24,329 bases of DNA from Candidatus Poribacteria bacterium (GTDB lineage Bacteria; Poribacteria; DTPJ01; WJIO01), in assembly GCA_014730235.1 (NCBI GenBank), contig WJIO01000309.1:1-24329 (forward strand), written 5' to 3'. The notes under the pieces were generated by a model. The model searched no databases and was not told the DNA's origin. It worked only from the letters and a program-made list of their open reading frames with translations. This document shows positions 842-22,863 of the stretch, piece after piece. The stretch's first letter is position 1, and each line of letters begins with the position of its first letter. Made by a program: the position numbers and the translations under genes.

Positions 842-2245
842 TTACCCTTCCTTCTTTAGATTAGCCAACTGAACTTTTACATCCCGGAAATCTTCGTCAA
901 TCATCCTTATCTTTTCCATTTCAATAATCGCTTTGTTATACCAATTCCGACTGCCAGTTGATTCCCATTTCTTTTTATACAACATAGCCAGTTCATAATG
1001 TATTCTCGGGTCTTTTGGTGCAATTCTTACGGCAGTCATTAAATGTTCCAATGCTTCATCCTGCCGATCCATTTCAAAGAGTATATCGGCTGCAATAACA
1101 TGAGCGTCCAGAATCGCAGTTAATTCTGCTCCGCTTTCAGGATCCAGTATATCCTCGCAAACCTTTAAGGCATCACCAAGACGACCAGCTTCTTTATGTT
1201 CAACAGCTAATTGCAGGCTTTCATCTATATCTTCATGGATTGCGGCAATATCTTCATCGCCATCTTCAATATTCAGATCAGAGCTTCTGCTGAAACTATC
1301 GAAACGGACATTGAGGGAGAATTGATGAGTTCCGTAAATATCGCTTATAGAATCTTCTTTAAAGAATAAGGGGTATCTGAAGGCGTAATCGATCTGTGCG
1401 TCTGTATTACCTCCACGATTTATTATATAACTCGCACCCAGGGACATATCATGGAAGTTAAAACCACCTCTAAGACCTATGCTTCCACCAGCTAACCATG
1501 ACTCTAAACCGACATTCAGGTTTATATCCTTGCTGTCATTAACGTCTTTATTCCTGTAGGTAAAATCTACAACCGGGGTAATGTTTCCGAATCTAAGGGC
1601 CGTTCCCGCCTGCAACAACATAGGAACTTTATCTTCTGCGTTTTCATCCAGAGCCATATCCGGTTGATTTACATTTAACAGGGCAAAACCGAAGGATAAA
1701 TTGTTTGTTACTTTAATCAGGGTTCCCACGTCAAGAGCGATACCATTTGTTGTCATACTTTCGCTGAAAAGTGGATCTATCTCTGTATAATCATTTTCAT
1801 CAAAACCGGCAAAAAGGCCTTTAGCATTTACACCAAGATATACTCTACCAAATGTCCGACCATAGCCCAGGGATATAGTCGTCTCACGGTATAATGGCGT
1901 ATTTAACATCGCCAGGTTGATAGCAAAGGCCCCATATTGCCCCGATGGTTGGGTGTAGCTTATGTAACCTCGTCCCAAGCTGTCATCCTCAAGTCCTGCG
2001 TAAAGTCTATCATAAGCAGCAGCAACCTCAGTCCTTCCGAGCTGACCAATACCGGCAGGATTAAACATTACGGCAGAGGAATCATCAGCCAAAGCCACAA
2101 AGGCCCCACCCATCCCCATAGGACGCACTCCTCCCCTGTCAACAAAAGCCGCATAACTGCTGAAAGGCATAATTAAAGCCATAAGCAGAAAACCCAGGGC
2201 TATTGAAACTTTGAAATGAAATTTGTCTATATTTTCTTGATTCAT
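842..2245 (-). CDS. PorV/UPF0164-like outer membrane barrel with C-terminal TPR region
   Basis: This 467-aa protein has a Sec signal peptide (hydrophobic SIALGFLLMALIMPFSSYA, cleavage near residue 32). Next comes the family hallmark RPMGMGGAFVALADDSSAV followed by MFNPAG, as seen in PorV/PorQ/UPF0164 barrels. Alternating beta-strand sequence continues to about residue 320 and ends in HQFSLNVRF. An acidic linker (about 325-340) leads into about three TPR-like helical pairs (341-373, 378-412, 413-452), including EALEHLMTAVRIAPKDP. The barrel should sit in the outer membrane with the TPR part in the periplasm. The ATG follows AAGGGTGA at good spacing. The gene starts 33 bp after the stop of the giant gene, so the two are probably cotranscribed. 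By analogy with PorV it may help export or anchor that giant protein; this is inference. The TPR extension is not part of classical PorV. Confidence 0.85.
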   Translation of the reverse strand: MNQENIDKFHFKVSIALGFLLMALIMPFSSYAAFVDRGGVRPMGMGGAFVALADDSSAVMFNPAGIGQLGRTEVAAAYDRLYAGLEDDSLGRGYISYTQPSGQYGAFAINLAMLNTPLYRETTISLGYGRTFGRVYLGVNAKGLFAGFDENDYTEIDPLFSESMTTNGIALDVGTLIKVTNNLSFGFALLNVNQPDMALDENAEDKVPMLLQAGTALRFGNITPVVDFTYRNKDVNDSKDINLNVGLESWLAGGSIGLRGGFNFHDMSLGASYIINRGGNTDAQIDYAFRYPLFFKEDSISDIYGTHQFSLNVRFDSFSRSSDLNIEDGDEDIAAIHEDIDESLQLAVEHKEAGRLGDALKVCEDILDPESGAELTAILDAHVIAADILFEMDRQDEALEHLMTAVRIAPKDPRIHYELAMLYKKKWESTGSRNWYNKAIIEMEKIRMIDEDFRDVKVQLANLKKEG

Positions 2246-2278
2246 AATTTTATCACCCTTATAAATGCGTCCCTGTAA

Positions 2279-5200
2279 TTATCGGGCTAAAACGATTGTG
2301 TTACCTTTAACCTCGCCATCAACCTCTATCTGATATACATATACACCCATTTCCACAGGTTGGCCTTCGTCATCAAGACCATCCCATGTGGTGAAACCAT
2401 TTTCCAGTCTTCTTACCAACTTGCCCCGAAGATCAAATATTCTGATTATCGAATCTTTATTATCAGGATTATTGAAATAGAAACTTACAGTATCGTTTAT
2501 ACCGTCATTATTTGGTGTAAATGGATTTGGATTAGCACCCAGCAGTTTAAATTCTCCGGGCACTTCACTTACCTCGAAAATACCAAAGATGGAAAGAGCG
2601 TTAACGGTAACGCTGATGTTATCTCTGTTTTTGTCCGTCTGGCCACCGATTTTATTCCATCTTACGCCATCCCAACGGAACACAGCCAGATTTCCGTTTA
2701 TATTGCTCATACCTTGATACTGTAAATAAAGGGTTGCCGGACTGGTAAAGGTGTCAGAAAAGTCTTTTTCACCATTTTCATCCATAAGATCAAATTCATA
2801 AGCAACCAGTGGTAATATAGAACCCGGGCCAATATCGGGATTATTTTCAGCCGGTTCAGGTGATTCAATATGACTTATATGAACGGTGAAGTCCCGATCC
2901 ACAGCACCGGAAGATACCTCTATACGGGTATCGTTATCACTGATGTTATCATCTCTTTTTTCTGGCAGGAACACAGTTCCACCATCGGCAGACTTAATCA
3001 ATGGACGATATAGTATGCTCAGTTTCTCCAACGCCTGGTTTCCGGCTTCGTCTAAGGCTGAAACTGTTATGATATTTTCTCCGACTTTTAGTGATACCAG
3101 ACAGCTAAAGTTTCCATTCTTATCAACAGAAATCTCAGTCGAAGCGTTTATATAACCTCTTGGAGCAACAGTAACCAAAGCATCCGACTCAGTATGTCCT
3201 TTAATTTCAATACGAGCGGACAATACCTCTACAGATGGAGCAGCACCGCTGGTTACAGGCTTTTCTATCACAAGTTCCGGTGGTAGGTTGTCCAGATCAA
3301 CTTCTATTCTGGAATCTGAAGATGAATTACCTACAACGTCTGTAGCAGTAACTGTTATTGGAATACCCGTAACGACACCGTTTGCGGCTTTTGTGTTTTC
3401 GTTTGATATGGCGTATTTCAGGGTATAGGTAAATGTGCCATCTCCATTACTTACAGGCTCTTTTACCTGTTTCAGCCCGACAGGATATGTAGAATCCAAC
3501 GGACTGAAATCCCCTGTTAAGTTGTAATTATTATCATCAAGAACAACCGACAGCGTTACAGTATCCCCATTCTTGTATATATTATCATCATCAGCGTTTC
3601 TAACTTCCATGATACCCGGTGCTGTATTATCCAGTTTCACCATAAGTTTATACTCAACAAGGTTACCGGCTTTATCCTCAGCGGATATAATAACAGCATA
3701 TTCACCATCCGGTATAGTATTGGAACTGCTGATCTCGTAATGGGTTGTATACGTTGTTCCAGCTTCGTCAGCTTCTGTTTCTTCACTGCCGGATGTATAC
3801 CCGGAATCTATATTGCTGAAATCAACTTTCAGCGTGTAGTCGGACATATCCCATTTTGTTCTCAATGTTACAGGGTCACCATCAGCAAAGGAAACGCCGG
3901 ATAAAAGAGTATTTTCTTCCTCCGTTCGGGCTTTATGCCACATATCATCCTTATGCAGATGAGTTTCTGTCAATACAGGATAAAGATTATCCAGAGCTAC
4001 TTTATATGTCCATGTTACATACTCCACACCATCGGATGCTGTCACAACTATCGAGGCATCTGGTCTATCCCACCACAGGTTGCTCTGGGAAATTGTATAT
4101 TCTACAGTATATGTGTTGTCACCGTTATTTGTAGTCTCCACAGCTTCAGGAATATAGTTGGAATCCAGTTGACTGAAGTCTGCTGTAACCTTCAGATCCG
4201 GAGCATCACACACTACAGTTAATTTCACATTCGAACCATTTGAATAGGCTGGTCTGTCTGAGGATACATCAACTATGCTGGGAAGGTTGTTTCTTAGCCT
4301 CAGGGTTATATCATCATATACCGTCACATTCCCTGCTGAGTCCTCAGCGGTTATAATCAGATTCTTGAAACCATCGGGCTTGGTGTTATCATCAGATACC
4401 ACATGTGTTAGTATGTATTCACCATCATCCAGACTTTCCATTTCCACAGGTTCAGTAACCGCAGAATCAAGTTGAGAAAGGTCTATACTGACGTTGTAAT
4501 CCAATTCATCCCAGTGAGTCCTTATGGTGACTGTCTCGCCATTCCTGACCCTTGTTTCTTTTGCCCCAGGTTCTGACGGAAATGCGGAATCCACATCTAT
4601 ATCTGTTCCAGTATGCAGCGGTGGGGCTGTATCATATTTAATGCGGAGATTATCAGGAACAACAGACGAATGGTTAATGGAATCTGTAGCGCGTAGTTTT
4701 ATTATATAATCACCGTTACCCTGAGGTTTCAGTTTGTATATCCAGTAGACCGGATCCCACAAATTATCTACAGGAATCAAGTCTTCATCCACAAGACCAT
4801 CACTATCGTTGTCTATACCGTCAAATGCTTCTTCATCTATACTACCATCGTTATCATTGTCCACTTTATCGCCGCTGAATGTGGTATTAACCCAATTATT
4901 TATAGGATCTTTGCGTGTAGTAGAAGAACCCTTTGGAATAAAGCTTCCTGAAAGGGATACAGACCTTACACCACTCCAGTCCTGGGCAGTTCCAGAGATT
5001 ATGACAGGTTGCTGATTTGTTATAAGACTGTAACCATCGGGATTAACCATTTCAATTGCCGGTGCGTCCTTATCCATTGACACTGTTCCAGAAACTTCTC
5101 TTATGTTCCCGGCCACGTCCCTGGCGGTTATAACGTATGTATACTCACCATCTTCATCCGCGCCGCTTCCATCCCAACGGATCCAGTATTCACCATCACC

Positions 5201-8200
5201 GTCAAAAGCTCTGTTAAGATCCGGTGTTGCGACTTTTTCCAGGTTCTTATCAAATATGCTCACACTTACACTGTCCCGAAGCTCTGAGTTATCGCCACGA
5301 CCTTCAGAACCACTTACAGTAAAGGTTATAGTTGTGGAATCGGAGAAGCCATCACCATCAGGTGTAAAGGGATTATTGGAAACAATAGGATTATCCACTG
5401 ATGGCGGATGGGTGTCAATTCCCACATTGGTAGATTCCACAGCGCCGGTTAATCCCATGTCGTCCACAGCGTCAACCTTAACAACATAAGAACCATCGGG
5501 CAGAAGCTCTGAATTATTATCCGTTCCATCCCATAATTCGTCATTCATACCGGCTGTTCGGGATTCCCAATCTACAAGTATCTTAACTGATTGTCCCTGA
5601 TCGTTGTAGATAATGGCTCTTACGCTGGCATCTTTAGATAACCCATAGGATATGGTCGTATTATCATATGTACCATCGGCATTGGGTGAGAATACCAGAG
5701 GGAACGCACCAAGATTACTTACCACAGGTCCACCGGGTTGTACTGTGTCATAGCTAAAGTGTATAGATGCACCATCTTCATGGATGGAATTTCCGGCTTT
5801 ATCAGCAAACCACACCTTAACTGTATAGCTGCCATCCACAGAGCCGTCCATAGCAAGAGGACTTTCAAACACATAGCTCATTAATACATTACCATCGTCT
5901 AATACAGAATATTCCATGCTTCCTGGTATTTTACCATCAGGACCGTATGCTTCCGCAACCAGGGAATTTTCATCTACACCAGAACCTGCATTATCGCTGA
6001 TAGTTACGCTGGCTTCTGAAAGCTTTACATTTACCACAGAAGAACCGTCACCAGGTGAAGCAGACACTAATTCTGGTGGTGTAGAGTCCAGAAGGAATCT
6101 ATATGTCTGTTGATTTACTGATATATTACCCAGCTTATCGCTGGCTGTTACTCTAACGGTGTATTCACCATCCAGAGCAAGTTCATTAAGATCCAGTATA
6201 AGGGTGTCAACACCGTTATTATGCTGTGTAGCTTCAACATCCATACCTTCTTTATCTATCAGTTCAATTCTGCATTCACTTAGATTAACACCTGAACCAC
6301 TGTCACTTACCAGTGCGATTATCTTTTCAAGAGGTAAAGCCTCTACAGGTATAATGTTCTGTATATCGCTTTCCAGTTCTATTCCGTCTACATCATCAAC
6401 ATATACAGCGTCTACAACAGCCGGTGTGGTATCGTATACAAACGTAGGAGTATATGATACGGTGTTACCGGTGTTATCTACAGCTTTTATGTCAATGGTA
6501 TATTCCCCATCGTCAGAACCGTCGTTAGCGAAGGGATACTGCAGTTCAAAAGTCATAGCATCAATACCATCATCGGTAAGATTTCCGGTGATTTCTTGGC
6601 CTTGTGGATCAAGTAATCTGATGCTGGAGTTTTCTAGGTCTACCCCTGTTCCACTCTTATCACCCAGCTTCACCTCTACAGTTTCAACAGGTTCTGATAG
6701 ATAAGCACCATTCCAGGGTGTTACAGAAACTAAAGTCGGTGCTGTAGGCATGTATGTAAAGCTGAACTGCTCTTCATCAGACTCATTACCCGCTTTGTCG
6801 TATAGAGTCACAGAAACTGTATATTTACCGTTGACTGAACCATCAACATGTAATGGTGAGAATGTGAGGATCATGGATTCTGAATTATCCTCCCGAATAC
6901 CCGGTATTACATTACCGGCAGGATTAACTAACTGGATAGTTGAATTTTCCATATCCACACCGGAAAGGAAATCCTGAGCCTGTATAGAAACCCTATCCAG
7001 AGAATACACCACCGTTGATCCGTCCTCCGGTGTAACACTTACCACCTTAGGAGCTGCAGTATCATATATAAAGGAATACCCCTTTGCCTCAGCTACCATG
7101 TTACCTATATTATCCTGAGGTGTGACCTGTATATTATATACACCGTCTTCAGTGAGAGGATCGAAGGTGAATTTTATTGTATCAACACCGTTATCTACCT
7201 GTCGTCCTTCTACATCCATTAACCTTATTTCAGACCTTTCCAGATCAACTCCGGTATGGAAATCAATAAGCTTTGCTGAAACGCTTTCTATACTTTCATT
7301 GAGTATAGACGAATCCGCAGGTGTAATAATATCAACTACAGGCGGCAATGTATCATATATAAAAGCACCTTCGTATGTAGTAGTAACACCTGAGTTATCA
7401 ACGGCTGTAACCTTTATGGTGTATACACCATCGTCAGAGCTATCAGTAGCCAGGTTTTCCTGTAGCTTCAACCTTACGGAGTCTGGTTGTACAACCTCAA
7501 GCGTTCCGTTTAACATTTCACCATCGAGATCAACCAGTTCAATGCGGGAGCTTTCCAGATCAAGACCGGATCCGCTGTTGTCTTGCATAGTAGCAGTAAT
7601 GTATACAGGGGGTTTATTCTGGTTAGAGTTATTCGCCGGGGTGGTAGAGATTACAGCCGGGGCCTTTGTAATATAGCTGAATTTAATTTCAGTAGGCTTA
7701 CTGGAGTTTCCTACCTTATCCTGGGCTGTCACTCTTATAGTGTATGACCCATCCTTATAATCATCAGGGATTATGCTTTCATCCAGTGTATATATAAGGG
7801 TATCGGGTTCCTGTCTATTCAAATCACCGGCTACTGCTACACCATCGGGATCAAGGAGTTCCATGAAACATGATCCCAATTCCAGACCGGCGGAACTGCT
7901 GGAAATACCGTCGCTTAATACTGCTTTTACCTCTGACATCCAGGATGTTATAACTGAACCGCCAGCAGGCTGTGTAGATGTTATCTTTGGCCCTGCAGTA
8001 TCATATATAAACTCATACAGGATTGGTTCAGGCAATTCATTACCAAGGATATCAACAGGACTTACGGATATTTCATAAAGACCATCGGCTGTTCCATCTT
8101 CGGGAAGCTGGAAGAAGCGGAAGGTAACTGTATCAACACCGTTATTCACCTGTTCACCGGTTATAACAACAGGACCACTAAGGCTTATCTTCGACTCAAA

Positions 8201-14200: not shown

Positions 14201-17200
14201 AAGACCGATTACAACTATATTCTCATCATCCGGATCGTCTTTAATTCTTGTTTTTCTTCCCTTGCTATCGATTGCAACGGGATATTCATCATCAGTATCT
14301 ATTACATTAGGCGCAATATCATCATTAATACTGGCATTGTAATTGAATTGGATCTCTATATCTTCGCTTCTGTTCTTGGCAAAGTCTATCAGGGATATGA
14401 TTATTGTATATATACCATCTTCGCTTCCATTATCAGCTAATGGAGAATCCAGATGCCACGTGATATTCGACAAGCCATCATTGGACATCCAGCCGGATAT
14501 TGGATCACCGGCAGGCCCTATCAGCTTAATGTTAGAATTGGCAAAATCAACACCTGTTCCCTGACCATCAGTAACAGTTGCAACAACATTGCTTATCTGT
14601 GCGCTGAAATCAGAGTCTTTCTGAGGCCTTGTGTATTTTACAATAGGAGCGACTTTATCGTTGGGTACAATTGTCGGGGATTCAATAATAATACCGTGAG
14701 TTTTTTCCAGGGTTTTTGCACCGTGGTATTTTACCGCTTCAATACGTGCAATATAAGTAGTGGCATCACCTGCACCTTTACCATCCCAGGATATAGAAAA
14801 AGGCGTTGGAATCCAGTTGGGATTCTGAGCCTGGTAATTTGCTCTGTAGTCCTCTATAGTTTTTGCATCTTCAGGATATGGCAATCTTATGTCAAAGGGT
14901 GGAGAATCCGGATCATCATTGTGAACAGGTTGAAGGAAGTAATTTTCATCCGAGCGTCCTGCCCTGATACCATCCCTTACATGACGAGAAGCCCATCCAT
15001 TTGTCGTCCACACATAATATAGACATTCAGCCCATACCCGGGCGACGATCTCCTGCTTGCCGGCTTCTACAGAAAATATGTTGGCTGAAACATAATCTGC
15101 GTAGCCTGTTATGGTATAGTCTATCATAGCCACGTCATTGACTTTGTCATCATCAGGTGAGAAGGGGTTAGGTGTTACAGAGATTTCCTTTAACTCATAA
15201 GGCTCTCTTACAACAGATACGGCTCCGGAGACTTCCTGACGGAGGAAATTTCCCGCTATATCTTTTGTCAACAGCTTTTCAAATTTATAAACATATAATC
15301 CCTCATCTACATACTCACCATCATCATTCCTGCCATCCCATAAAGCAAAATGCTCTCCGGGATTAAGAACCAAAGCATATACATTAAGGGAATCATCAGG
15401 GCCTTCTTTTCTTATGGTATAAGTCTTTCTTGTATCCTCCACTATCCATAATCCATCTTCAGTTTTGGAGATAACGGCGTCATCAGAAAGATTAACACCG
15501 CTGTCTTCAAAACGCTGTCTGAGAACCGTAGAAATAGTTGATAACTCATCCTCAAAGTTTTTATCCATGCTAAACAGCACAGGTTCCAGATTTCTGACAG
15601 GATTATAAAGGTCATCCTGGGGATATATCCTTATGGTTACGCTTCCGGCTTCGGTAATGGTAAAGAAAATCTTGGTGAAATCGTCTATTCTGTCACCGTC
15701 GGGAGAGAAGGGTGAAGGTACAGCGGTTATATTTTCTATAGAAGGTGCTGTTTTATCAGCTACAGCACTTACTGCAATATCTTCATCCTCACTATCTGCA
15801 TTTACTACAATACCAAGCCATTGATTAACACCGGTATGAAGGACATAGAAATACTGAGTACCATCACTGGTAGGATGGGCAATATCCGCGCCGTCAATCC
15901 ATGGGGATGATGCACCAGACTGCCAGAGATTGGTTTTCAAAATCTCTTTAATTTCTTCATCGGTTTTATCCGCTAAATCAATAAAACGTGATGTGCTTCT
16001 GTATATATCAGCAGTTCCATCACCAGTCCATATTAAGCGTATCTGACCATTGGGAATGGCCTGGGCTATGGCCGACTGTTCTTTTTCACCTATACCTGTT
16101 ACGTCTATGAATATTTCTTCCGTATTATATATATGACCGGCATTGTCCTGAACTTTTATATTTAGTTTGGGGTTATTGAAGTCAACCGGGATATTTATGG
16201 AGTAGCTCCAGTTTAATAGTCCTACAACAGGTTCCCATATACCTTCATAGTCGTCCCATGATATTTTTATTTCAACAGACTTTACACCAGAAATATTATC
16301 AATAGCTACACCCTGGACTACCAAAGTACCGGATATCTCATCAATTAAGATAGAGTCTTCCGGAATTTCCGGCATTGTTCTGTCTATTTTTACTAAGTTG
16401 TTAGCCTCTACTTCATCCCCGGTATTACCCACTTCATCACGACCATAATATTTAATAGAAAATTCACCATCACCTTTTTCTATAAATCTATCATCTATAA
16501 CATCGTCTTCGGAATATTCCAGGAATTCTATTTCGACACTTTCTTCAAATTCACCGTTTAAAACTATCTCACCAGTGTTAATATTTGTAACATTTACGAA
16601 TATAGTTTCAACAGGATTATCTTCATATTCGGCTTCCAGAGTTACTGTAACGTCGGAAGTCTGCCAACCACTGGGTGTATCGTCTGAAACAACAGGGGCA
16701 GTATGGTCAACTATTAACTCAATTGTCTCAAAACCAGTAGATTTATTACCAACTTCGTCAACAGCCGTTGCACTGATCTCATATTTACCTTCTATTACTT
16801 CCAGAATATAAGGTTCTGCAGGAGTTACAATACCAGTGACCTGATCCCATGAATCTTCAGGGAATTTACCATCAATAAAAGAGGCATTTAGAGTACCTAC
16901 CAGGTTATTATTCATTCGGATTTCTACTTTTGCTTCTGGTTCTGCATAACCTTCGATCTCAATGGAAGTTCCGCCAAAGGGGGATTCAGGCAAAGAATGT
17001 ATAACAGGGGGGGCGGGGGGATTGTTGTCCACTATCACCGGTATATTGCTTTCGGCAGTTTCATCCTGAGTTGTGGCATCAACGGCGGTTATTACAAGGT
17101 TATATGTATCTTCATCATCGGGATTTATAAAAATATATTCTTCATCTTCGTTTTTTATCATACCATCCCAGCATATCTGATGATTGCCTCGTTTAATGGT

Positions 17201-18589
17201 CTCTCTTTCTGTTTCTTCTTCACCATCACCAATTTCTTTATCTAGATCTCTTATTAGATTATTCTCACTGTCATATACCTTTGCAGACACCCATGCGGTT
17301 TCTGACACATAATAATTAACAGTCAGAAAATCGGCTACGTTATCCTGATTTTGGGGTGAAATTTTGGCTATTGACGATGATACAACCTCTATTGTGCCAT
17401 CCTGATCCTCTATTACATCCTCAATAATCTCAACATTAGGGGAAGCGGAAATAATACTTAATCTTATGGGATCATTGTCTATGTATATTGCCTCAGAACG
17501 TCGTGCAATATTGCCAGCGGCGTCTGTTACTTGTATACGGGCAATGTATTTGCCGTCGGGGTAGGTAAGGTCACCACCCCAGCGGATGAAGTAATTGCCA
17601 AAAGTGGCAAGATCACCAATAAAATTAGGACGCGCAAGTATTGAATCAACCCGTGTACCAAATTCATCATATATATTAACAGATGCTGAACCACCAACCC
17701 AGCCTAACCAAAAGATATATGTATTACCTTCCTCACCGCTAAAAACTATGTTTTGGATGTCAGTATAAACTTCATCAGTTATGTAAGTAACCCCCGGGCT
17801 AACACTAATCTCACTCGTAGCGACTTCCTTATAATATGAGCCATTAATTTTAATATCTAATTCTTCTAAAGCACCACCGCCAAGAATTCCCCATGAAATC
17901 GCTAAATGACCATTCATAATTTCCGGAACAAGTCCACCAGGAATAGGAACAAGCATTTCACCCTCAGTTTCAGGAGGTATTTCAACACCCAATCCCTCGG
18001 TTATAATTCCATCATCATTATCGCTTCTTATAATATCAAAGTTAATCTCTGTATAGTCATTAATGGCATCACCATTAGGTGAAAATGGATTGGGATTTAC
18101 TGTAACATTATCAATAACAGGTGGAACGCTATCAACTGTAATAATTCCATCCTCTTCCAGGTCACCGTTCACAAATACCTGAACAGGATAATCCCCATCA
18201 GCACCAACAGGCCATTTAATTATATTCATACCTGCGCTATATTCATCCTGTGGAACTACGGTAACACCATTTACATTTGTTTCTACTGAAATATCTTCTG
18301 GATCTTCAGACAAAACAAAGGATATAGTTACCTCATCATGCAAATCCGGCGATACGGGATTTGGATATATTGACAGATTGGTGACAGAAGGATCGGCGTT
18401 ACATATAGTATAAGGTAAACATACAAGGAGTATGGTAATTAATAACCACCGGAGCAATACGGCAGCATAACGTATAGTCTGGACGGTGCAACGACCGATC
18501 CGTCTTGGAAGCTGCTTGGTATTCAAGGATTCGTTTTTATCGCTCATTACTTGATGATTCAGGTATATTTTTTCTGTCAGCATATTCAT
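2279..18589 (-). CDS. Giant (5436-aa) secreted Ig-like/FlgD-like repeat protein
   Basis: A single uninterrupted frame. The ATG is preceded by AAGGTGA six bases upstream. A long n-region (about 40 residues) precedes a Sec signal core LLRWLLITILLVCLPYTICNA, with cleavage near residue 66. Order of parts: FlgD-like Ig domains marked by NPFSPNGD-type motifs and WDG; an FN3-like segment (about 840-935); six irregular Ig modules (1310-2177); eighteen Ig modules in A-B-C triads (2177-4285); two more FlgD-like domains; an Ig domain with a calcium-motif insert (4574-4604); four DFSxLDS modules (4656-5101); a Glucodextranase_B-like Ig (5102-5196); a ZU5-like domain; and a terminal FlgD/CHU_C-like domain (5349-5436) ending NTIVLAR. 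The protein is very acidic, Asp/Gly-rich and Cys-poor. No catalytic domain is recognised. It is likely a fibrous surface adhesin, stalk or coat protein of roughly 580 kDa (estimated from length). The specific function is unknown. Confidence 0.9.
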   Translation of the reverse strand: MNMLTEKIYLNHQVMSDKNESLNTKQLPRRIGRCTVQTIRYAAVLLRWLLITILLVCLPYTICNADPSVTNLSIYPNPVSPDLHDEVTISFVLSEDPEDISVETNVNGVTVVPQDEYSAGMNIIKWPVGADGDYPVQVFVNGDLEEDGIITVDSVPPVIDNVTVNPNPFSPNGDAINDYTEINFDIIRSDNDDGIITEGLGVEIPPETEGEMLVPIPGGLVPEIMNGHLAISWGILGGGALEELDIKINGSYYKEVATSEISVSPGVTYITDEVYTDIQNIVFSGEEGNTYIFWLGWVGGSASVNIYDEFGTRVDSILARPNFIGDLATFGNYFIRWGGDLTYPDGKYIARIQVTDAAGNIARRSEAIYIDNDPIRLSIISASPNVEIIEDVIEDQDGTIEVVSSSIAKISPQNQDNVADFLTVNYYVSETAWVSAKVYDSENNLIRDLDKEIGDGEEETERETIKRGNHQICWDGMIKNEDEEYIFINPDDEDTYNLVITAVDATTQDETAESNIPVIVDNNPPAPPVIHSLPESPFGGTSIEIEGYAEPEAKVEIRMNNNLVGTLNASFIDGKFPEDSWDQVTGIVTPAEPYILEVIEGKYEISATAVDEVGNKSTGFETIELIVDHTAPVVSDDTPSGWQTSDVTVTLEAEYEDNPVETIFVNVTNINTGEIVLNGEFEESVEIEFLEYSEDDVIDDRFIEKGDGEFSIKYYGRDEVGNTGDEVEANNLVKIDRTMPEIPEDSILIDEISGTLVVQGVAIDNISGVKSVEIKISWDDYEGIWEPVVGLLNWSYSINIPVDFNNPKLNIKVQDNAGHIYNTEEIFIDVTGIGEKEQSAIAQAIPNGQIRLIWTGDGTADIYRSTSRFIDLADKTDEEIKEILKTNLWQSGASSPWIDGADIAHPTSDGTQYFYVLHTGVNQWLGIVVNADSEDEDIAVSAVADKTAPSIENITAVPSPFSPDGDRIDDFTKIFFTITEAGSVTIRIYPQDDLYNPVRNLEPVLFSMDKNFEDELSTISTVLRQRFEDSGVNLSDDAVISKTEDGLWIVEDTRKTYTIRKEGPDDSLNVYALVLNPGEHFALWDGRNDDGEYVDEGLYVYKFEKLLTKDIAGNFLRQEVSGAVSVVREPYELKEISVTPNPFSPDDDKVNDVAMIDYTITGYADYVSANIFSVEAGKQEIVARVWAECLYYVWTTNGWASRHVRDGIRAGRSDENYFLQPVHNDDPDSPPFDIRLPYPEDAKTIEDYRANYQAQNPNWIPTPFSISWDGKGAGDATTYIARIEAVKYHGAKTLEKTHGIIIESPTIVPNDKVAPIVKYTRPQKDSDFSAQISNVVATVTDGQGTGVDFANSNIKLIGPAGDPISGWMSNDGLSNITWHLDSPLADNGSEDGIYTIIISLIDFAKNRSEDIEIQFNYNASINDDIAPNVIDTDDEYPVAIDSKGRKTRIKDDPDDENIVVIGLDDEQAPEIRKISLLVEDDKSGIELNDSRIDLYKMVGSEEILIGTEKNTNELDKLNGNLTLFINNGLVPGGEDDGKYMVRIIPYDVAGNNSTYEYFFKYQTISDEIPPEILEVKLLDADNNIIVKDSEAPFDFGWLSGSVKTIRVRIQDSVSGDWVSSGFNFDPNLSGMSLVLGRSDKVEGEISYSGLSRTKEGEAKVDMLFTLSKNMTPGGTHDGWYKATLFIADNADNQLSDINITFGYDSTPAYISRSAINDTIVWVNDSQDAPVEPITVGTSFRDIEEIFVLAKDNSSGPDGCELELFSPAGSPVSLEDPVLVPREEIYEKLLEVTRALSSDVGISAGWYTMLATPVDKVGNMGETVTIKFLVDQESPLITDVDIENGTECNCIGPVCMGKYPYTNNVEYIDLTIADTGSNLAMNYMWLELIEPNSGDTINNINGDIQIVTVDDMDQDVVAGNIGILRFVLNIPLSLKGFYTIKAFVSDDVESMLFSTNNVQQSDFDILDSLILPDSIRSVFLNQGISLSENISVSVKDDGCIWLIRDNALENLDVYDGGGCKWLKDVAQNTYILKKEVINDDGNLKPTLDVFINNYATIHIPDAFFFDNVPPEVTTIKAYYQGDEIDDDEFDSITASLRDEDSGLDYELVSLVLKDETGLIIPGSLLIDQDEESITWKLEDELDLDSDDIYIVEYAIHDMAGNEEKLSADLRAYLSSGKNVLAPTIVSVFPEDESLVGGPNQIITQVIAYLKDNSGTGIDYERSYIDVDAPSKAPDWWKIKGYQSYDETQQAIIWNFNQSLATDGRGDGEYEVNIRAYDNEGHKSDRMRVNFYYDSQPPEVEKLEIGSRPWTAVNYEPLSGMRKGGTSRELNRCVVKLDDELASIDFDKSDVEIEGPNGVLETSKSNDGIDTLVIDFPTLSRDGEDDGLYLIKVTAVDSLGNANPFPHAEPYVFSFIYDTTSPGVVESEPEADSTRFSKLEKISIKLDDSTGVGNDLATSAATIFVYGPEGPVEGKRNIEYIDGDEYIIYTLDNPLSVDDSTDDGEYRVTFMSTDWLGNQSSVEYTFEYNAVGPELVNVYADTAGEIKYLETEDKPQISITQKGLSIKAVLKDRSGSGIDFDSSFIFVEGPGVSSEDTLNNNGVDVLTYIFAESLNNDGTDDGRYMVLIRGADRDGHWVEYEPYIFMYDTSLPRVVETIPEDGSIFNVPIEQVMIKLEDMTGVDVANSEIRIEPDIPAEKFFIGDDTIGLEFFNPQQEMTDGIYTIKIKPLDILGNGSDSIEKTAFKFTFDTSTPKIMSSDPFNGEIITSPLDRMEVILSDGTIGSGIDLSACDLSLIGPDGSKVTGNLQKLSAEDILANENASPLVVRNWSTVKAQLPSADGTGNIMIDYYVISGEIENRSGSVKEKIRVNVSAYDANGRMVSSGSSDVKNPVVPGDIDPGSVSNFSVWIEETGGEETFKIRVYYIDPEDEREKLGGETLGNDAALVFNLDEPLATDGSDDGTYMMRILTQDNVGNVSPAAVRIFTYNTRSAALVSTTPADGAKISQPIRLVSAVLDDNSGTGLDLQNSSIKLVKSDGQTLAGEPGFELPNIISFTLQDDLKDDGNYKLEIKAVDKTGISAFYTTGFTFDTTPPVIRSTWPADGSMVKDSISYVSARLEDIGSGVDLEKSVIDMIGPDGAVSGSQSNDGVDTIKWEFDALVTDSSHDGEYIITVIPVDEVGNIGTEQEFSFIYDTNPPFVVESTPEANTTIVDELSSVSVELDDGNGTGVDIRSSEIKLYNPSGKETQTIRSTDGVSVMTLTFPTFATDGSADGQYTIKVIPKDKAGNTGEIEVPFNYSALAPELVDVEVVSEDAVLSLASNENRQFERSVVEVRVTLKDRSRSGNGLDFSQSMVVVEGPGVSDNDILTHNSIDTITYTFAIPLANDGTDDGEYMVYIKAVDNDGQSAQYKAGFVYDSTAPYVVAIQPKSKQTRPPVSDVPTPVISESFDSIKVKLGDKYAGVDLFESKISLSGPVVITGEQVNNGVDTVTFRFFQLPEDGTADGLYEISVSPVDILGNELPEPILYEFIYDTAGPKITSTQPAGGSVITSWMSEVKAVLSDGISSSSAGLELGSCFMELLDPDGVAVAGDLNRQEPDTLIYTLDESIIPDDYKDGSYTIRVTAQDKVGNSSKPTEIKFSYITKAPAVISTTPANNSNQNKPPVYITATMQDNSGSGLDLESSRIELVDLDGEMLNGTLEVVQPDSVRLKLQENLATDSSDDGVYTIKVTAVDNSGVTTTYEGAFIYDTLPPVVDIITPADSSILNESIESVSAKLIDFHTGVDLERSEIRLMDVEGRQVDNGVDTIKFTFDPLTEDGVYNIQVTPQDNIGNMVAEAKGYSFIYDTAAPKVVSVTPEDGSTVVYSLDRVSIQAQDFLSGVDMENSTIQLVNPAGNVIPGIREDNSESMILTFSPLHVDGSVNGKYTVSVTLYDKAGNESDEEQFSFTYMPTAPTLVSVTPWNGAYLSEPVETVEVKLGDKSGTGVDLENSSIRLLDPQGQEITGNLTDDGIDAMTFELQYPFANDGSDDGEYTIDIKAVDNTGNTVSYTPTFVYDTTPAVVDAVYVDDVDGIELESDIQNIIPVEALPLEKIIALVSDSGSGVNLSECRIELIDKEGMDVEATQHNNGVDTLILDLNELALDGEYTVRVTASDKLGNISVNQQTYRFLLDSTPPELVSASPGDGSSVVNVKLSEASVTISDNAGSGVDENSLVAEAYGPDGKIPGSMEYSVLDDGNVLMSYVFESPLAMDGSVDGSYTVKVWFADKAGNSIHEDGASIHFSYDTVQPGGPVVSNLGAFPLVFSPNADGTYDNTTISYGLSKDASVRAIIYNDQGQSVKILVDWESRTAGMNDELWDGTDNNSELLPDGSYVVKVDAVDDMGLTGAVESTNVGIDTHPPSVDNPIVSNNPFTPDGDGFSDSTTITFTVSGSEGRGDNSELRDSVSVSIFDKNLEKVATPDLNRAFDGDGEYWIRWDGSGADEDGEYTYVITARDVAGNIREVSGTVSMDKDAPAIEMVNPDGYSLITNQQPVIISGTAQDWSGVRSVSLSGSFIPKGSSTTRKDPINNWVNTTFSGDKVDNDNDGSIDEEAFDGIDNDSDGLVDEDLIPVDNLWDPVYWIYKLKPQGNGDYIIKLRATDSINHSSVVPDNLRIKYDTAPPLHTGTDIDVDSAFPSEPGAKETRVRNGETVTIRTHWDELDYNVSIDLSQLDSAVTEPVEMESLDDGEYILTHVVSDDNTKPDGFKNLIITAEDSAGNVTVYDDITLRLRNNLPSIVDVSSDRPAYSNGSNVKLTVVCDAPDLKVTADFSQLDSNYIPEAVETTNNGDNTYTVEYTISQSNLWWDRPDASIVVTASDGVEYVTWTYKVALDNLYPVLTETHLHKDDMWHKARTEEENTLLSGVSFADGDPVTLRTKWDMSDYTLKVDFSNIDSGYTSGSEETEADEAGTTYTTHYEISSSNTIPDGEYAVIISAEDKAGNLVEYKLMVKLDNTAPGIMEVRNADDDNIYKNGDTVTLSVVLDDNNYNLTGDFSPLDSTYPVGLKQVKEPVSNGDGTFTYTLKYAISNENTKAANGVVTGIPITVTATDVVGNSSSDSRIEVDLDNLPPELVIEKPVTSGAAPSVEVLSARIEIKGHTESDALVTVAPRGYINASTEISVDKNGNFSCLVSLKVGENIITVSALDEAGNQALEKLSILYRPLIKSADGGTVFLPEKRDDNISDNDTRIEVSSGAVDRDFTVHISHIESPEPAENNPDIGPGSILPLVAYEFDLMDENGEKDFSDTFTSPATLYLQYQGMSNINGNLAVFRWDGVRWNKIGGQTDKNRDNISVTVNALSIFGIFEVSEVPGEFKLLGANPNPFTPNNDGINDTVSFYFNNPDNKDSIIRIFDLRGKLVRRLENGFTTWDGLDDEGQPVEMGVYVYQIEVDGEVKGNTIVLAR
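2282..2545 (-). other. Terminal FlgD/CHU_C-like domain, candidate sorting or anchor signal
   Basis: The last ~88 residues of the giant protein hold NPNPFTPNNDGINDTVSF, then IRIFDLRGKLVRRL, then TTWDGLDDEGQPVEMGVYVYQIE, shown here in part only, and end in VLAR. This is the strand and motif order of FlgD-like Ig domains and of the C-terminal sorting domains of type IX cargo. Calling it a sorting signal is inference, because the machinery is not in the window. Confidence 0.65.
3290..4625 (-). repeat. Four tandem DFSxLDSxY modules in the giant protein
   Basis: Four consecutive units of about 100-120 residues run at roughly 4285-4625, 3990-4285, 3630-3990 and 3290-3630. Each has a G/N-x-V-T/K-L/I-x-x-x-W/V-D strand, then a core such as DLSQLDSAV, DFSQLDSNY, DFSNIDSGY or DFSPLDSTY. 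Each then has an IS/VSxxNT-type turn, an ITAxDxxGN-type strand, and a linker of the L(D/R)N(L/T)xP kind. The family differs from the triad modules upstream in the same protein. Confidence 0.75.
4780..4870 (-). other. Thrombospondin-3/MopE-like calcium motif insert
   Basis: About residues 4574-4604 read DKVDNDNDGSIDEE then FDGIDNDSDGLVDEDL. These are two DxDxDG-type acidic loops typical of TSP3- or MopE-like calcium repeats. They interrupt an Ig-like domain that begins at PAIEMVNPDG and resumes at DPVYWIYKLKPQGNGDY. Confidence 0.7.
5735..12060 (-). repeat. Eighteen Ig-like modules arranged as six A-B-C triads
   Basis: Units are mostly 100-125 residues and share P-x-V-x-S-x-x-P-x-x-G, then D-x-SG-x-G-V-D, then DG-x-x-DG-x-Y and a closing D-x-x-GN strand. 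Approximate triad starts on the plus strand, in transcription order, are 12060, 11010, 9625, 8690, 7660 and 6745. Type A units carry D(N/R/K)SG(T/S)G or a close variant and end in DNxG/DRDG/DKTG-type strands with YDS/YDT/FDT linkers. Type B units have a shorter loop without the extra Gly and end in LGN/VGN/IGN then YDT or its variants. Type C units have a variable loop and mostly end in a linker lacking DT (YNAVGP, YNTRSA, YSALAP, YITKAP, YMPTAP). The last C unit instead ends YDTVQP. Confidence 0.8.
9775..10170 (-). other. FxLYD-like domain nested in an Ig module
   Basis: One C-type module (about 9625-10340) is some 238 residues long instead of about 100. The extra ~130 residues lie between GSKVTGNLQKL and DAALVFNLDEPLATDGSDDG, which are adjacent strands in the other modules. 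The insert contains YVISGEIENRSG, VNVSAYDANGRMVSSG and a DIDPGSVSNFSV segment. That matches the GExxN..., xVxxYDxNGxVV, PGxxxxF layout of FxLYD-type domains. Confidence 0.65.
12415..12690 (-). other. Inserted mini-domain, second copy (two Cys)
   Basis: This segment of the giant protein (about residues 1967-2058) contains GISLSENISVSVKDDG, then DGCIWLIRD, then GGCKWLKDVAQNTYILKKE. It resembles a segment at 15370-15575. It interrupts an Ig-like module just before that module's last strand, IHIPDAFFFDNVPP. The two Cys residues, each followed within two residues by Trp, could form a disulfide. The function is not recognised. Confidence 0.5.
15370..15575 (-). other. Inserted mini-domain, first copy, in a FlgD loop
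   Basis: About 70 residues containing GVNLSDDAVISKTEDG and LWIVEDTRKTYTIRKE sit between the strand ending VRNLEP and the LNPGEHFALWDG strand of a FlgD-like domain. In ordinary FlgD-like domains those two strands are joined by a short loop. The segment resembles the one at 12415-12690. Confidence 0.5.
17007..17020. repeat. G7-C-G6 homopolymer tract inside the giant gene
   Basis: Seven G at 17007-17013, one C, then six G at 17015-17020 on the plus strand. On the coding strand this is a C-rich run encoding Pro-Pro-Ala-Pro-Pro near residue 524. Slippage by one base would truncate the protein at about a tenth of its length. Confidence 0.9.
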
Positions 18590-18746: not shown

Positions 18747-18773
18747 GAGAATTGCAAATTTTATTTAAAATCA

Positions 18774-19895
18774 TCAAAACCTAACACTAACCGAAAATCT
18801 GTTTTTTGTGTCTCCCAGTCCATCGCTATCCATAAGATATGCATAGTCCAACTGCCATGATGCCCATCTTACACCCACTCCTGCGGCGAAGGTTATGCGT
18901 TCTGAGTTGGATAGCTGTTTTGCAACGCCGCCCCGTATAGCCAGGTTTTTCTCGGATACGGGGAATGTATTCTTTGCAGGGAATATCCAGTGTTCCACGC
19001 CCAGGTGCAGTTCCTTGAAGCTGATGTTCTTTTCACCTACAATATCCACAGCGGCGGTTAATCCGGGCAGGGGTTCAGCACTTATGCCCAGCTTATAGCG
19101 ATACGGTAGATATTCATCGCTTTGAATTTCAGTATCCTTGTTCCACGATATTCTGGTAGGAGTATCCTGGATAACCATGCCGACGCTCAGACGGTTTCGT
19201 CCATCCTTTGCCCTCAATCCGGCAAGGATACCAAAATCCACACCGTATCCCCGGGATTTGCATATTACCGGAACGACTTCATCGGGTTCTTCACTTTCCT
19301 CGACTTCTGTATCCTCTTCCTTATCTGTCCATGGGATAATCTCTAAATCCGAGTTCTGGCGAAGGTATTTCGCGGTAACACCTAAAGCCAGATTAAATCC
19401 TTCCTTCTGTTTACCTTTTTTATCCAATCCATACAGACACTTTGCATACGAAATAAGGAATATATCCTCATACCAGGATTCAAATTCAAACTGCATGCGA
19501 TTCCATCCAAGAGACATGGCCCCGCTTCCTGTATCAGGTGTTGACATGTTTAATGTGTTAGTAGTAATAAGATCAAGTCCATACAAATCTGCACGGGTAA
19601 AAGAAAGCTCCTTGTATAAGGAAGTTGTAAGACCGGCAGGATTCCAGTATGCCGCAGACGAATCGTTGGATACCGCAGTGAAAGCACCATTCATACCCAT
19701 TGCCCGCGTGCCTATGCCTGTACTAAAACCAGTAAATGAAAATGCACCTCTGGTGGATGATTCTGCCTGAACAGCAGAACAGAAGGTTGCAAGAAGGCAC
19801 AAAACCACGACGAACGAATAGGATAATTGGTAATTTATCCTGCCATCTTTTCTATAATATGTCCTGCACTGACTGGTATAAGGTTCGTCCTTCAT
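18774..19895 (-). CDS. PorV/UPF0164-like outer membrane beta-barrel protein
   Basis: This 373-aa protein starts at the ATG at 19895, chosen because GGGGAG lies six bases upstream. A TTG 13 codons earlier is also possible. The signal peptide core is SFVVVLCLLATFCSAVQA. Then comes the family motif RAMGMNGAFTAVSNDSSAA followed by YWNPAGL, closely parallel to the motif of the PorV-TPR protein at 842-2245. Beta-strand sequence runs to the end, and the last residue is Phe (FSVSVRF), as expected for a BAM-assembled barrel. There is no TPR extension. A highly acidic loop (EEDTEVEESEEPDE) interrupts the barrel near residues 200-215. It lies between the 942-aa modular protein and the giant protein. By analogy with PorV it may act in export or anchoring of these; this is inference. 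Confidence 0.85.
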   Translation of the reverse strand: MKDEPYTSQCRTYYRKDGRINYQLSYSFVVVLCLLATFCSAVQAESSTRGAFSFTGFSTGIGTRAMGMNGAFTAVSNDSSAAYWNPAGLTTSLYKELSFTRADLYGLDLITTNTLNMSTPDTGSGAMSLGWNRMQFEFESWYEDIFLISYAKCLYGLDKKGKQKEGFNLALGVTAKYLRQNSDLEIIPWTDKEEDTEVEESEEPDEVVPVICKSRGYGVDFGILAGLRAKDGRNRLSVGMVIQDTPTRISWNKDTEIQSDEYLPYRYKLGISAEPLPGLTAAVDIVGEKNISFKELHLGVEHWIFPAKNTFPVSEKNLAIRGGVAKQLSNSERITFAAGVGVRWASWQLDYAYLMDSDGLGDTKNRFSVSVRF

Positions 19896-19900
19896 GTCTT

Positions 19901-19907
19901 TCTCCCC
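19901..19907 (-). promoter_or_regulatory. Ribosome binding site deciding the PorV-like start
   Basis: GGGGAGA on the minus strand lies six bases (AAAGAC after GGGGAG) before the ATG at 19895. It supports that start over the TTG at 19934. The candidate AGGGGG before that TTG belongs to the REP-like repeat. Confidence 0.65.
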
Positions 19908-19939
19908 ATTCGGTAATTTCTCTTTTTTAAGCAAGATTC

Positions 19940-20034: not shown

Positions 20035-22863
20035 CTATCTAATCACTGCTACGAGTTTATTCATATTCTTATTAGTCTTATCTTTTTTATAGGTAATCCT
20101 GCATATAAAGATGCCGTTATGTACGTATTCACTGGATGATTCGGCTTTGCCATCCCAGGCCAGGGAGTTATCCCCTCTTCCCTGCTCTTTCAGCAAAGCC
20201 ACTCTATCACCAGCAATGTTATATATTTCGATCTTGTATTCGTCTACATCACGATTAAATGAAAACGTAAGAAGTTCCATCTCAGGATTGAAGTATTTCG
20301 GCGGCGTAATTATTACATCCTCAGTAGAAACAGAAGGAGCAACCGGGCTTGTGTAGGCAACAACATAATATTGATCCAGATAATCTATTCGGGCGGTTAT
20401 TTTATTTTCTTCCTCCAGGATATTGATATTTGGTATCTGTATCCATTCTTTAGCCTGAGTTTTGTATGCGTATATAGACAACTCCGTTTCAGCAGTTCCT
20501 AAAGGTAAAGCAAGTTCATCATAATACATATTCATATCTGCATTCTGGGAAAGCTGGACATCATATACGCTTAATTCCAGAGCTGTATCTGATACAAGAC
20601 TTAATTCTGAAACAATACCGGGGAAATCCTCAGTTTCGTTTACTGTAAGTGAATTCAGTTCAACAGGATTTTCACCAACAGCTGTGGTAGAAGCATATAT
20701 AGTCAGGTAGGTTTTACCACCATATCTGATGACTATATTTTCCGCCATATCAAGGGCAAACTGGTATGTATATATAGCCTTTGTACCGGCTTTATCTGTG
20801 GCTATAATAACAATTGTATATGTATCAGATATCAATAACGGTTCATCCAGCTTATTTATAAGCTTGGTGTTTTCATCATCCAGAATTAACTCGCCGTCAA
20901 TAGTCTCATTATTGGAGTTACGGACATATATGGTAGAATTTTCCAGATCAACCCCAGTTCCGGTAAGACCATCAGTCAATACTGCGCTGACTTCCTGTAT
21001 GGGTTGGGTATAAGGATCAATTGGTCTTCCTTCAGTATCAAACTCTGTGGGAACCGGTTGAACAGTATTGGGAACAACAACAGGTGCACTGGTGTCGGCT
21101 ACAGTGAAGATATACAAGGACGGTTCTACAGCCTTATTTCCCCTCTTATCTACAGGTACAACAGAGATAGTATATGTTCCACTTATGCTTAACTCATTAT
21201 CGAGAATAAGCTTAACTACATTTATACTAAAGGGCAAAAGCTGTCCTGCCAGTTTATTTCCTAAAGGATCTAACAAAGATACTGTTGACTGAATAGGATC
21301 AACACCAGAACCGCCGGCCCCATCATCCAGAGTAACGGAAACCTCTTTAATCTGATCTCTACCGGGATCAATTATTGATCCAGCGCTGGGTGTTGTGGAG
21401 GCTATTATAGGTGGATCATCATCTATAGCAATAAGCTCATCCCTGTCCACAGTAACAGCTTTCCTTCTACTATAAGCTGTTATACCATGATGTCTGGCAG
21501 GCACAGCATGCCATTTTTCACCTATTATTATGCCGCTGGGGCCTGTTAGATATCCAGCAAACTCATATGTACGCCCAACAAGTTCACATTCCAGATTAAC
21601 CAGATAAGTGCCATCAGGTATAAATTCCGCTTCCCAACCTACCGAGAACCTTGATTCATAATATGGACCGTCTTCAGATTCAAAAGGTCCAGATAATGGT
21701 ATTAATGTGTCCCAGTCGTTCTTTTTATTGTCATCAGGAACATCCAATAAATCATTAGGAAGACCGAAATAGTTGCCTGAACCGGGTGGTACATCAGAAG
21801 GCATTTTACCACGAGGCCAGCCGTTGGGTGCAAAGTCTGTGTCAGCATTTGGGGTCATGTCATGGTCGAAAACAAACTGGGTTGAGCCAGATGAATTAAA
21901 TATGGAAATACCCATGAGGGCAAAGGGATATATATCATCATCATCTTCAGTACTTGTGGTTATGTAATTTTCGTTGCCAAAACCCAGAACACTTAGCTGT
22001 TCCTCAGAAGCATAGAGCATTACGTCAAATGTTATCCAGGCCACATCTTCCACATCATCCCCGTCGGGAGAAAAGGGATTAGGGGCTATCAGGGAATTAT
22101 CAATCTCCATTCTAACTGTGCTTAATATACATCCACCGCGAGTTGATATAGCTTCATTTCCTGCAGTATCAGTTGCGTTGATCTCATAGGTGTATATTCC
22201 ATCTGGCAGCATGTTGCCCTGATTATCATTACCATCCCATGAAGTCTGGTTTTCACCGGGTTTGCCTGATGGTGTGCCAAGTTTTCTAACAAGTTGATTA
22301 TCAGGACTGTAAATATCAATTGATACAGTTGATGCTTCGGTTAAAATATATCTTATGTAGGCCACCTGATAATTTGGATTAAAGGGATCAGGGGCTACAC
22401 TGTCATTAGTCAATACAGGACGAGTACCGTCAATAGTAACAGTAGGAGTCATATCATCTTCAGGATCAGTTAATACCTCGGTATTGTCCTCGGCAATAAA
22501 CCTTACAATAATTGGTCCCTCACTTACGGTATCACCCTCAAATATGGTATAATCCAACTCATGGATATTATCACCTGAAATAGCATCACCATTTGTACCA
22601 TCGTCATAAAGTTGTATGCTTTCATGTACGGTGCTAATATCAACTACTACACTACCGGGCATATCCGTCTCAACGGCAAAATGCAGAACATCGCCTATAT
22701 TCAGGGGTTCATCATCAACATCCCAGTAAACATTTATATCAATTACTTCCGCAGCATAAGCAGATGTTGATATAAAAGCCATAACACACAGCAGGAGTAT
22801 GAATACACCGTTTCTGTTATTTTCCAGAGCTTTTGGCATTGATGTATAATTCCTATCTATCAT
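20035..22863 (-). CDS. Secreted modular Ig-like/FlgD-like protein
   Basis: This 942-aa protein has a signal peptide core VFILLLCVMAFISTSAYA. In order it shows: an N-terminal Ig-like domain (DGTNGDAISGDN, about 40-150); a FlgD-like Ig (PDPFNPN, TSWDGNDNQGNMLPDGIY); a second FlgD-like Ig with a large loop insertion (NPFSPDGDDVED); two Ig modules of the giant protein's triad family (GGSGVDP and TGTGVDLENS, about 485-690); a ZU5-like domain (about 695-850); and a terminal FlgD-like domain (YKIEIYNIAGDRVALL, SLAWDGK) ending LVAVIR. The tail order matches the giant protein. The ATG at 22863 has AAGGA nine bases upstream; a GTG at 22869 and an ATG at 22839 are alternatives. It starts about 31 bp after the secretin stop, so cotranscription is likely. 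No enzyme domain is seen. It is probably a surface or pilus-associated structural protein. Confidence 0.87.
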   Translation of the reverse strand: MIDRNYTSMPKALENNRNGVFILLLCVMAFISTSAYAAEVIDINVYWDVDDEPLNIGDVLHFAVETDMPGSVVVDISTVHESIQLYDDGTNGDAISGDNIHELDYTIFEGDTVSEGPIIVRFIAEDNTEVLTDPEDDMTPTVTIDGTRPVLTNDSVAPDPFNPNYQVAYIRYILTEASTVSIDIYSPDNQLVRKLGTPSGKPGENQTSWDGNDNQGNMLPDGIYTYEINATDTAGNEAISTRGGCILSTVRMEIDNSLIAPNPFSPDGDDVEDVAWITFDVMLYASEEQLSVLGFGNENYITTSTEDDDDIYPFALMGISIFNSSGSTQFVFDHDMTPNADTDFAPNGWPRGKMPSDVPPGSGNYFGLPNDLLDVPDDNKKNDWDTLIPLSGPFESEDGPYYESRFSVGWEAEFIPDGTYLVNLECELVGRTYEFAGYLTGPSGIIIGEKWHAVPARHHGITAYSRRKAVTVDRDELIAIDDDPPIIASTTPSAGSIIDPGRDQIKEVSVTLDDGAGGSGVDPIQSTVSLLDPLGNKLAGQLLPFSINVVKLILDNELSISGTYTISVVPVDKRGNKAVEPSLYIFTVADTSAPVVVPNTVQPVPTEFDTEGRPIDPYTQPIQEVSAVLTDGLTGTGVDLENSTIYVRNSNNETIDGELILDDENTKLINKLDEPLLISDTYTIVIIATDKAGTKAIYTYQFALDMAENIVIRYGGKTYLTIYASTTAVGENPVELNSLTVNETEDFPGIVSELSLVSDTALELSVYDVQLSQNADMNMYYDELALPLGTAETELSIYAYKTQAKEWIQIPNINILEEENKITARIDYLDQYYVVAYTSPVAPSVSTEDVIITPPKYFNPEMELLTFSFNRDVDEYKIEIYNIAGDRVALLKEQGRGDNSLAWDGKAESSSEYVHNGIFICRITYKKDKTNKNMNKLVAVIR

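Follow-up and report, generated by a model that had tools for sequence, protein, structure and literature searches.

Sorting-domain proteins and neighboring PorV/PorP-family barrels suggest a type IX-like export route in Candidatus Poribacteria

Type IX secretion (T9SS) is described in reviews and recent papers as exclusive to Bacteroidota or to the FCB group. Two described arrangements are closest to the locus analyzed here. In the type A branch, proteins with type A sorting domains (CTDs) are exported through the SprA translocon with PorV as shuttle, and PorU-PorV belongs to this branch (PMC10994853). In the type B branch, giant adhesin-like proteins carry a type B sorting domain and the cognate PorP/SprF-like shuttle is encoded immediately downstream, as known for SprB-SprF and Fjoh_3952-Fjoh_3951 in Flavobacterium (PMC12618676, PMC9143113). 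Static pairs of this branch also involve a TPR-bearing partner (PorE). For Poribacteria, Kamke et al. reported in 2014 TIGR04183 tails on eukaryote-like repeat proteins, WD40 proteins above all, but no structural secretion genes, and the pathway was left open (PMC3909097).

Gene order and domain families of the locus

We analyzed a window of 24,329 nucleotides from a Candidatus Poribacteria genome (assembly GCA_014730235.1, contig WJIO01000309.1, positions 1 to 24,329). A preliminary description had listed a secretin, a 942-aa Ig/FlgD protein, a PorV-like barrel, a 5436-aa Ig/FlgD protein, and a PorV-like barrel with TPR in transcription order, and this observation was confirmed. All five ORFs are present in this order on the minus strand (Table 1), the first exported protein being 944 aa long from its GTG start and 942 aa from the internal ATG. 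The genes are separated by gaps of 25, 100, 184, and 33 bp. Since a terminator-like hairpin lies just past the last gene and none of the minus-strand hairpins found upstream is located in a gap between the genes, a single operon is plausible.

Table 1. Features of the analyzed window, with the scores supporting their assignment (cut-offs in parentheses).
Position	Strand	Feature	Supporting evidence
22895-24328	-	PilQ-like secretin, N-terminus cut by the contig end; probably co-transcribed but judged not part of the system	Secretin 135 bits; TIGR02515 PilQ 225 bits
20035-22869	-	Exported 944-aa protein (export inferred): Sec-type signal peptide, FlgD_ig and other Ig-like modules, C-terminal T9SS type A sorting domain	FlgD_ig 72 bits; Big_13; CHU_C 34 bits; TIGR04183 27.3 bits (23)
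20035-20304	-	Type A-like C-terminal sorting domain of the 944-aa protein, ends ...LVAVIR	85 bits to the tail profile
18774-19934	-	PorV-family outer-membrane barrel, inferred partner of the 944-aa protein	NF033709 PorV_fam 73 bits (90)
2279-18589	-	Exported 5436-aa protein (export inferred): signal peptide, about 19 copies of one ~105-aa module among other Ig-like domains, C-terminal T9SS type B sorting domain	TIGR04131 44.7 bits (35)
2279-2548	-	Type B C-terminal sorting domain of the 5436-aa protein, ends ...TIVLAR	TIGR04131 over cut-off; low-to-moderate confidence model (pLDDT 69.7)
842-2245	-	PorV/PorP-SprF-family barrel (about residues 30-317) with C-terminal TPR region, inferred partner of the 5436-aa protein	PF11751 PorP_SprF 32 bits (22.3); TPR 31 bits; TIGR03519 38.9 bits (90.55); NF033709 65 bits (90)
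845-1258	-	TPR region of the second barrel, expected in the periplasm	TPR_11/TPR_14; helical with pLDDT about 80 in the model
777-804	-	Intrinsic terminator-like hairpin closing the operon	12-bp stem, then T run

The signal peptides of both exported proteins were recognized by eye. Shared modules were confirmed by BLASTP between the two proteins (E=1e-20). The tails, in contrast, are related only at profile level, as pairwise BLAST of the last 330 aa returned nothing, and a phmmer search of the 944-aa protein's tail against PDB sequences was likewise without a match. The motif MGM(G/N)GAF...NPAG occurs in both barrels (E=8e-9). However, it represents the general signature of the family and consequently does not distinguish this pair.

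Both tails exceed the curated cut-offs of the respective sorting-domain models, whereas both barrels remain below the PorV_fam cut-off. The only strong PDB match of the barrel profile, of which the first barrel is a member, is PorV (6h3i, E=6e-26). The PorP_SprF cut-off is passed by the barrel following the type B protein and not by the other one, in line with the arrangement known for type B cargo in Flavobacterium. The structural model of the second barrel shows 14 strands followed by TPR helices, but is poor (pLDDT 54.7); its fold matches, with PorV 8gl6_F ranking third among porins and TPR proteins, were therefore not used as evidence beyond the strand number. The model of the type B tail matches T9SS CTDs (PorZ, PorU, NucA, RemA, RemZ) and FlgD about equally weakly, thus not separating the two.

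Recurrence of the pairs and type IX homologues in Poribacteria

We next examined whether the pairing of tail-bearing ORFs and barrels extends beyond this locus. Among 132 next neighbors of barrels, 24 were tail-bearing ORFs, compared with 10 of 525 ORFs further away. Three held-out Poribacteria genomes showed the same enrichment (P=8e-7). Within the genome under study, nine sorting-domain proteins adjoin a barrel, with about 0.5 expected. The pairing itself is far beyond chance. Six pairs are conserved as pairs across genomes, including PorU-PorV; they stay together across families of the phylum and co-diverge. Nine other paired barrels exceed the PorV_fam cut-off of 90. Homologous barrels in relatives do lie next to such cargo, so that the condition set beforehand for refuting the interpretation, that such barrels are never next to such cargo, was not fulfilled.

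The type B/PorP combination of the window is not a general rule in this phylum. One type B-like tail has a PorV-like barrel, and a barrel with PorP signal carries a type A-like tail. Type B tails are moreover rare in the phylum. The correlation of barrel and tail distances within genomes was only borderline (P=0.05).

A SprA homologue occurs in 57 of 58 Poribacteria, in collinear stretches. The homologue of the genome under study scores 182.3 bits with TIGR04189 (E=9e-54), just under the equivalog cut-off of 200, passes the PF14349 cut-off, and aligns over its length with a true SprA at 24% identity, while a SprA profile searched against PDB sequences found nothing. Homologues of PorU are present in 58 of 58. 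In the genome under study, a PorU-like C25 sortase with propeptide and type A tail reaches 409.5 bits with NF033707, just missing the cut-off of 420, and is itself followed by a barrel. In four genomes the PorU-like gene is directly followed by a barrel. PorL, PorM, and PorN were not found, as GldL, GldM, and GldN models gave nothing convincing, but the same models also find nothing in Aliifodinibius, an organism with an unambiguous SprA (1526 bits), which renders this negative result weak.

Compared with the type B systems, the locus shares the giant adhesin-like cargo with a TIGR04131 tail and the PorP/SprF-like barrel immediately downstream. It differs by its occurrence in Candidatus Poribacteria, by a barrel that also resembles PorV and carries TPR on the same chain, and by the lack of recognized PorLMN. 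Compared with PorU-PorV and type A export, the PorV-family barrels, the type A tails, the PorU-like sortase followed by a PorV2-like barrel, and the SprA homologue are shared. In contrast, several PorV-family barrels per genome are paired with different cargoes instead of one general PorV, the scores lie just below equivalog cut-offs, and the PorU-like proteins comprise about 1900-2150 aa. Relative to the 2014 report, SprA, PorU-like, and PorV-like genes are added, and the missing outer-membrane module is probably found here.

Inferred export route and alternative readings

The preliminary description had inferred, by analogy, a dedicated barrel per cargo, possibly within a type IX-like or secretin-coupled surface display system, and this interpretation is only partly supported: type IX is more than analogy, strict one-to-one dedication is not shown, and coupling to the secretin is not supported. 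We consider it likely, although not certain, that the locus encodes two cargo-shuttle pairs of a SprA-based type IX pathway. In this view, each cargo would be exported by Sec and fold in the periplasm, and its sorting domain would enter the SprA channel, bind the loops of a PorV/PorP-family barrel docked at the channel's side opening, and leave sideways bound to that barrel, which would hold or release the cargo outside. The barrel encoded directly downstream would be the preferred carrier, made in step with its cargo, i.e., a PorV-like carrier for the 944-aa protein and a PorP/SprF-like carrier for the 5436-aa protein. The TPR part of the latter would probably dock to a periplasmic partner and keep the giant adhesin-like protein on the surface. 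Our data establish the gene order, the domain families, the recurrence and conservation of the pairs, and the presence of SprA and PorU-like homologues in the same genome, whereas export itself, the transport steps, cognate binding and carrier choice, and the role of the TPR are inferred from Bacteroidota.

If correct, this would explain how these sponge symbionts put large adhesin-like, WD40, and protease proteins on their surface. It gives the question left open in 2014 concrete genes, and provides natural, divergent shuttle-cargo pairs for working out how shuttles choose cargo. A further-reaching and only tentative reading, not excluded by the evidence, is that Candidatus Poribacteria run a SprA-based system outside the groups in which it has been described, with a set of cargo-dedicated PorV/PorP-family shuttles, some fused to TPR or cell-wall-binding domains, and an energy source different from the PorL/M motor.

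It remains possible, though less likely, that type IX export is right while the barrels act as anchors or as a pool of interchangeable shuttles, adjacency only securing co-expression. About 48 of roughly 57 sorting-domain proteins in this genome have no neighboring barrel and must share. Cross-talk between type B shuttles is documented in Flavobacterium (PMC12618676), PorP-PorE-PG1035 is an anchoring complex (PMC9143113), and the within-genome barrel-tail correlation is only borderline. The co-divergence of the six conserved pairs argues against this reading, as does the finding that in Flavobacterium the downstream shuttle is required for secretion of its overproduced type B cargo (PMC12618676).

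Two other readings are less convincing. Export of the cargo by the secretin in a type II-like or pilus-coupled display, with the barrels as accessory porins, is very unlikely. It rests on the proximity of the secretin gene on the same strand, but the best homologues of this PilQ-like protein sit in a type IV pilus cluster or beside a histidine kinase, without cargo or barrel, and the seven other cargo-barrel pairs of this genome have no secretin next to them in the stretches read. The tails furthermore pass T9SS cut-offs. It also appears unlikely that the tails are ordinary FlgD/Ig-like domains and the barrels ordinary FadL-like porins in general surface-protein gene clusters, even though the tail folds weakly resemble FlgD as well as T9SS CTDs, FlgD_ig also occurs inside the proteins, and FadL-like barrels (Toluene_X) are a broad group. 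Besides the sorting-domain scores and the SprA and PorU-PorV homologues in the same genome, the domain sits at the very C-terminus with a terminal K/R in the aligned set, and the enrichment of tail-bearing ORFs falls to background beyond the direct neighbor of the barrel.

Gene content, sorting domains and barrels of the window

The window represents a complete contig (C249, 24,329 bp) of the 5.53-Mb draft genome G000, the source genome of this study. The - strand harbors a PilQ-like secretin (N-terminus cut), a 944-aa exported protein, a barrel, a 5436-aa exported protein, and a second barrel with TPR, separated by gaps of 25, 100, 184 and 33 bp. A strong terminator hairpin follows the last gene, while none of the - strand hairpins found further upstream lies in an intergenic gap. 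The preliminary description, which had reported two successive pairs of a modular exported protein and a PorV-like barrel behind a secretin, is correct in its observation, although the MGM(G/N)GAF...NPAG motif it stressed for both barrels is simply the family signature. G000 belongs to the Poribacteria, and the relatives of its SprA homologue are almost all Candidatus Poribacteria. It is a draft with 4.77% contamination, but every key component recurs in single-contig relatives.

The 944-aa protein ends in a type IX secretion (T9SS) type A sorting domain (TIGR04183, 27.3 bits, cut-off 23) and the 5436-aa protein in a T9SS type B sorting domain (TIGR04131, 44.7 bits, cut-off 35), the latter being the only protein over the TIGR04131 cut-off found in 20 Poribacteria genomes. 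In the 17 tails aligned, the domain sits at the very end of the protein, which closes on K or R. A 104-aa structural model of the type B tail (pLDDT 69.7) matched PorZ, PorU and the substrate CTDs NucA, RemA and RemZ, but also FlgD, all of them weakly.

In respect to the barrels, a profile of 16 poribacterial sequences found PorV (6h3i) at E=6e-26 as the only strong match in the PDB. The barrel after the type B cargo passes the Pfam PorP_SprF cut-off (32 against 22.3) and has a partial PorP-family hit (38.9 bits, below cut-off), whereas the barrel after the type A cargo has only PorV-family hits (73 bits, below the cut-off of 90). In a low-confidence model the second barrel is predicted to consist of 14 strands followed by TPR helices.

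Coordinates of additional features in the window and in other genomic stretches (L numbers)
Stretch	Position	Strand	Feature
Window	804-777	-	Strong terminator hairpin after the last gene
Window	1-774	+	Partial gene ending in a dockerin-like pair of Ca-binding loops, converging on the operon's terminator
L087, L114, L092, L117, L085	8948-10522, 9297-10802, 8597-10546, 8413-10452, 11582-14044 (in this order)		Other PorV-like barrels of Poribacteria fused to cell-wall or protease domains: SLT transglycosylase, SPOR (one with an internal CHU_C/FlgD-like domain), or peptidase S49
L086, L120	6970-9549, 10706-13162 (in this order)		Proteins with type A sorting tails beside their own barrel; the L086 one has 13 WD40 repeats
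L051	5399-12292		SprA homologue of G000, with a LysM domain near its N-terminus
L187	5712-11495		Cargo-barrel pair of genome G016 like that of L054, with a response-regulator gene inserted between cargo and barrel

Probable type IX components and recurrence of the pairs

Extension of the analysis to the whole genome showed that a type IX system, at least its outer-membrane part, is probably present. The SprA model TIGR04189 matches 57 of 58 Poribacteria genomes, in collinear stretches of ORFs of usually about 2150-2300 aa. The homologue in G000 scores 182.3 bits (E=9e-54; equivalog cut-off 200), passes the Pfam SprA_N cut-off, and aligns over its length with the SprA of Aliifodinibius (1526 bits) at 24% identity; its LysM domain could tie it to the cell wall. 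PorU-like C25 peptidases occur in 58 of 58 genomes. Poribacteria genomes carry several families of very large (about 1700-2200 aa) PorU-like C25 peptidases each, e.g., on contigs C26, C261 and C365 of G000. The one on C26 has propeptide, C25 domain and type A tail, scores 409.5 bits (cut-off 420) and is followed by a barrel, as are its counterparts in the relatives G010, G019 and G035 (probably corresponding to OY282386.1, OX638316.1 and OY282444.1). Comparison of match positions revealed a PorU-like match within about 5 kb of a barrel in at least 16 of 20 genomes. Models of GldL, GldM and GldN returned nothing convincing, but they also fail in the Aliifodinibius genome (G058, stretch L179) in spite of its unambiguous SprA, so that absence is not shown; either the models are narrow or the motor differs there too.

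In order to evaluate whether the pairing recurs, we counted ORFs with such tails around barrels in four genomes. They were 17 of 65 just upstream and 7 of 67 just downstream of a barrel, against 10 of 525 at two to six genes' distance. As the tail profile was built from the tails of G000 itself, nearly all of them from its pairs, the three other genomes represent the fair test, giving 14 of 96 against 7 of 426 (P=8e-7). In G000, 9 of about 57 tail-bearing proteins adjoin one of about 23 barrels, with about 0.5 expected; without the window it is 7 (P about 1e-6). Six pairs recur across genomes, with the nearest barrel and the nearest tail mostly pointing to the same partner: PorU-PorV; a barrel followed by a ~460-aa cargo (also in G016); a WD40 protein and barrel; a ~1000-aa cargo and barrel; and two giant-cargo pairs. 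The 5436-aa pair of the window is closest, on both the barrel and the tail side, to the ~460-aa class, whose barrels also carry PorP-family signal. Furthermore, nine partner barrels elsewhere pass the PorV-family cut-off.

Inferred mechanism and relation to known systems

In Flavobacterium, SprA is a channel with a lateral opening, where PorV docks, binds the C-terminal domain of the cargo with its loops, and carries it out (PMC10994853). Type B cargo uses cognate PorP/SprF shuttles, usually encoded directly downstream and made in matching amounts (PMC12618676), and PorP-like barrels can anchor type B cargo through PorE, a TPR and OmpA_C protein (PMC9143113, PMC5053529). The window has the same parts in the same order. 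While the gene order, domain families and recurrence of the pairs rest on the sequence data themselves, transport and partner choice are inferred from this match, and the TPR on the second barrel as a link to a periplasmic anchor is a guess.

The suggestion of the preliminary description, a dedicated barrel per cargo in a possibly type IX-like or secretin-coupled display system, is supported in part. The linkage of the secretin is not kept in relatives, so secretin-coupled display is not supported. Most tail-bearing proteins have no neighboring barrel, so shared shuttles must exist, and within-genome co-variation of barrel and tail distances is borderline (P=0.05). The correspondence of type B tail and PorP-like barrel holds for the window pair but not as a rule: L054 has a type B-like tail (33.0 bits, under the cut-off) with a PorV-like barrel, L085 has a type A-like tail with a barrel that has PorP signal, and two weaker type B-like proteins (L188, L189) have no adjacent barrel.

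Type IX secretion is called exclusive to Bacteroidota (PMC12618676) and SprA “FCB-specific” (PMC12611786). Type A sorting domains were reported in Poribacteria in 2014, but no structural genes, and the pathway was left open (Kamke et al., PMC3909097). No paper joining SprA or type IX genes with Poribacteria was found in the library searched, in which subscription journals are mostly lacking. The finding, inferred from sequence, differs from the described type IX systems of Bacteroidota in its occurrence in Candidatus Poribacteria, which may or may not belong to or near the FCB group, and is of real interest because it makes an open question testable. The WD40 protein of L086 matches the remark of the 2014 study on WD40 proteins with this tail in Poribacteria. 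The barrels fused to cell-wall or protease domains are possible one-chain relatives of the PorP-PorE anchor.
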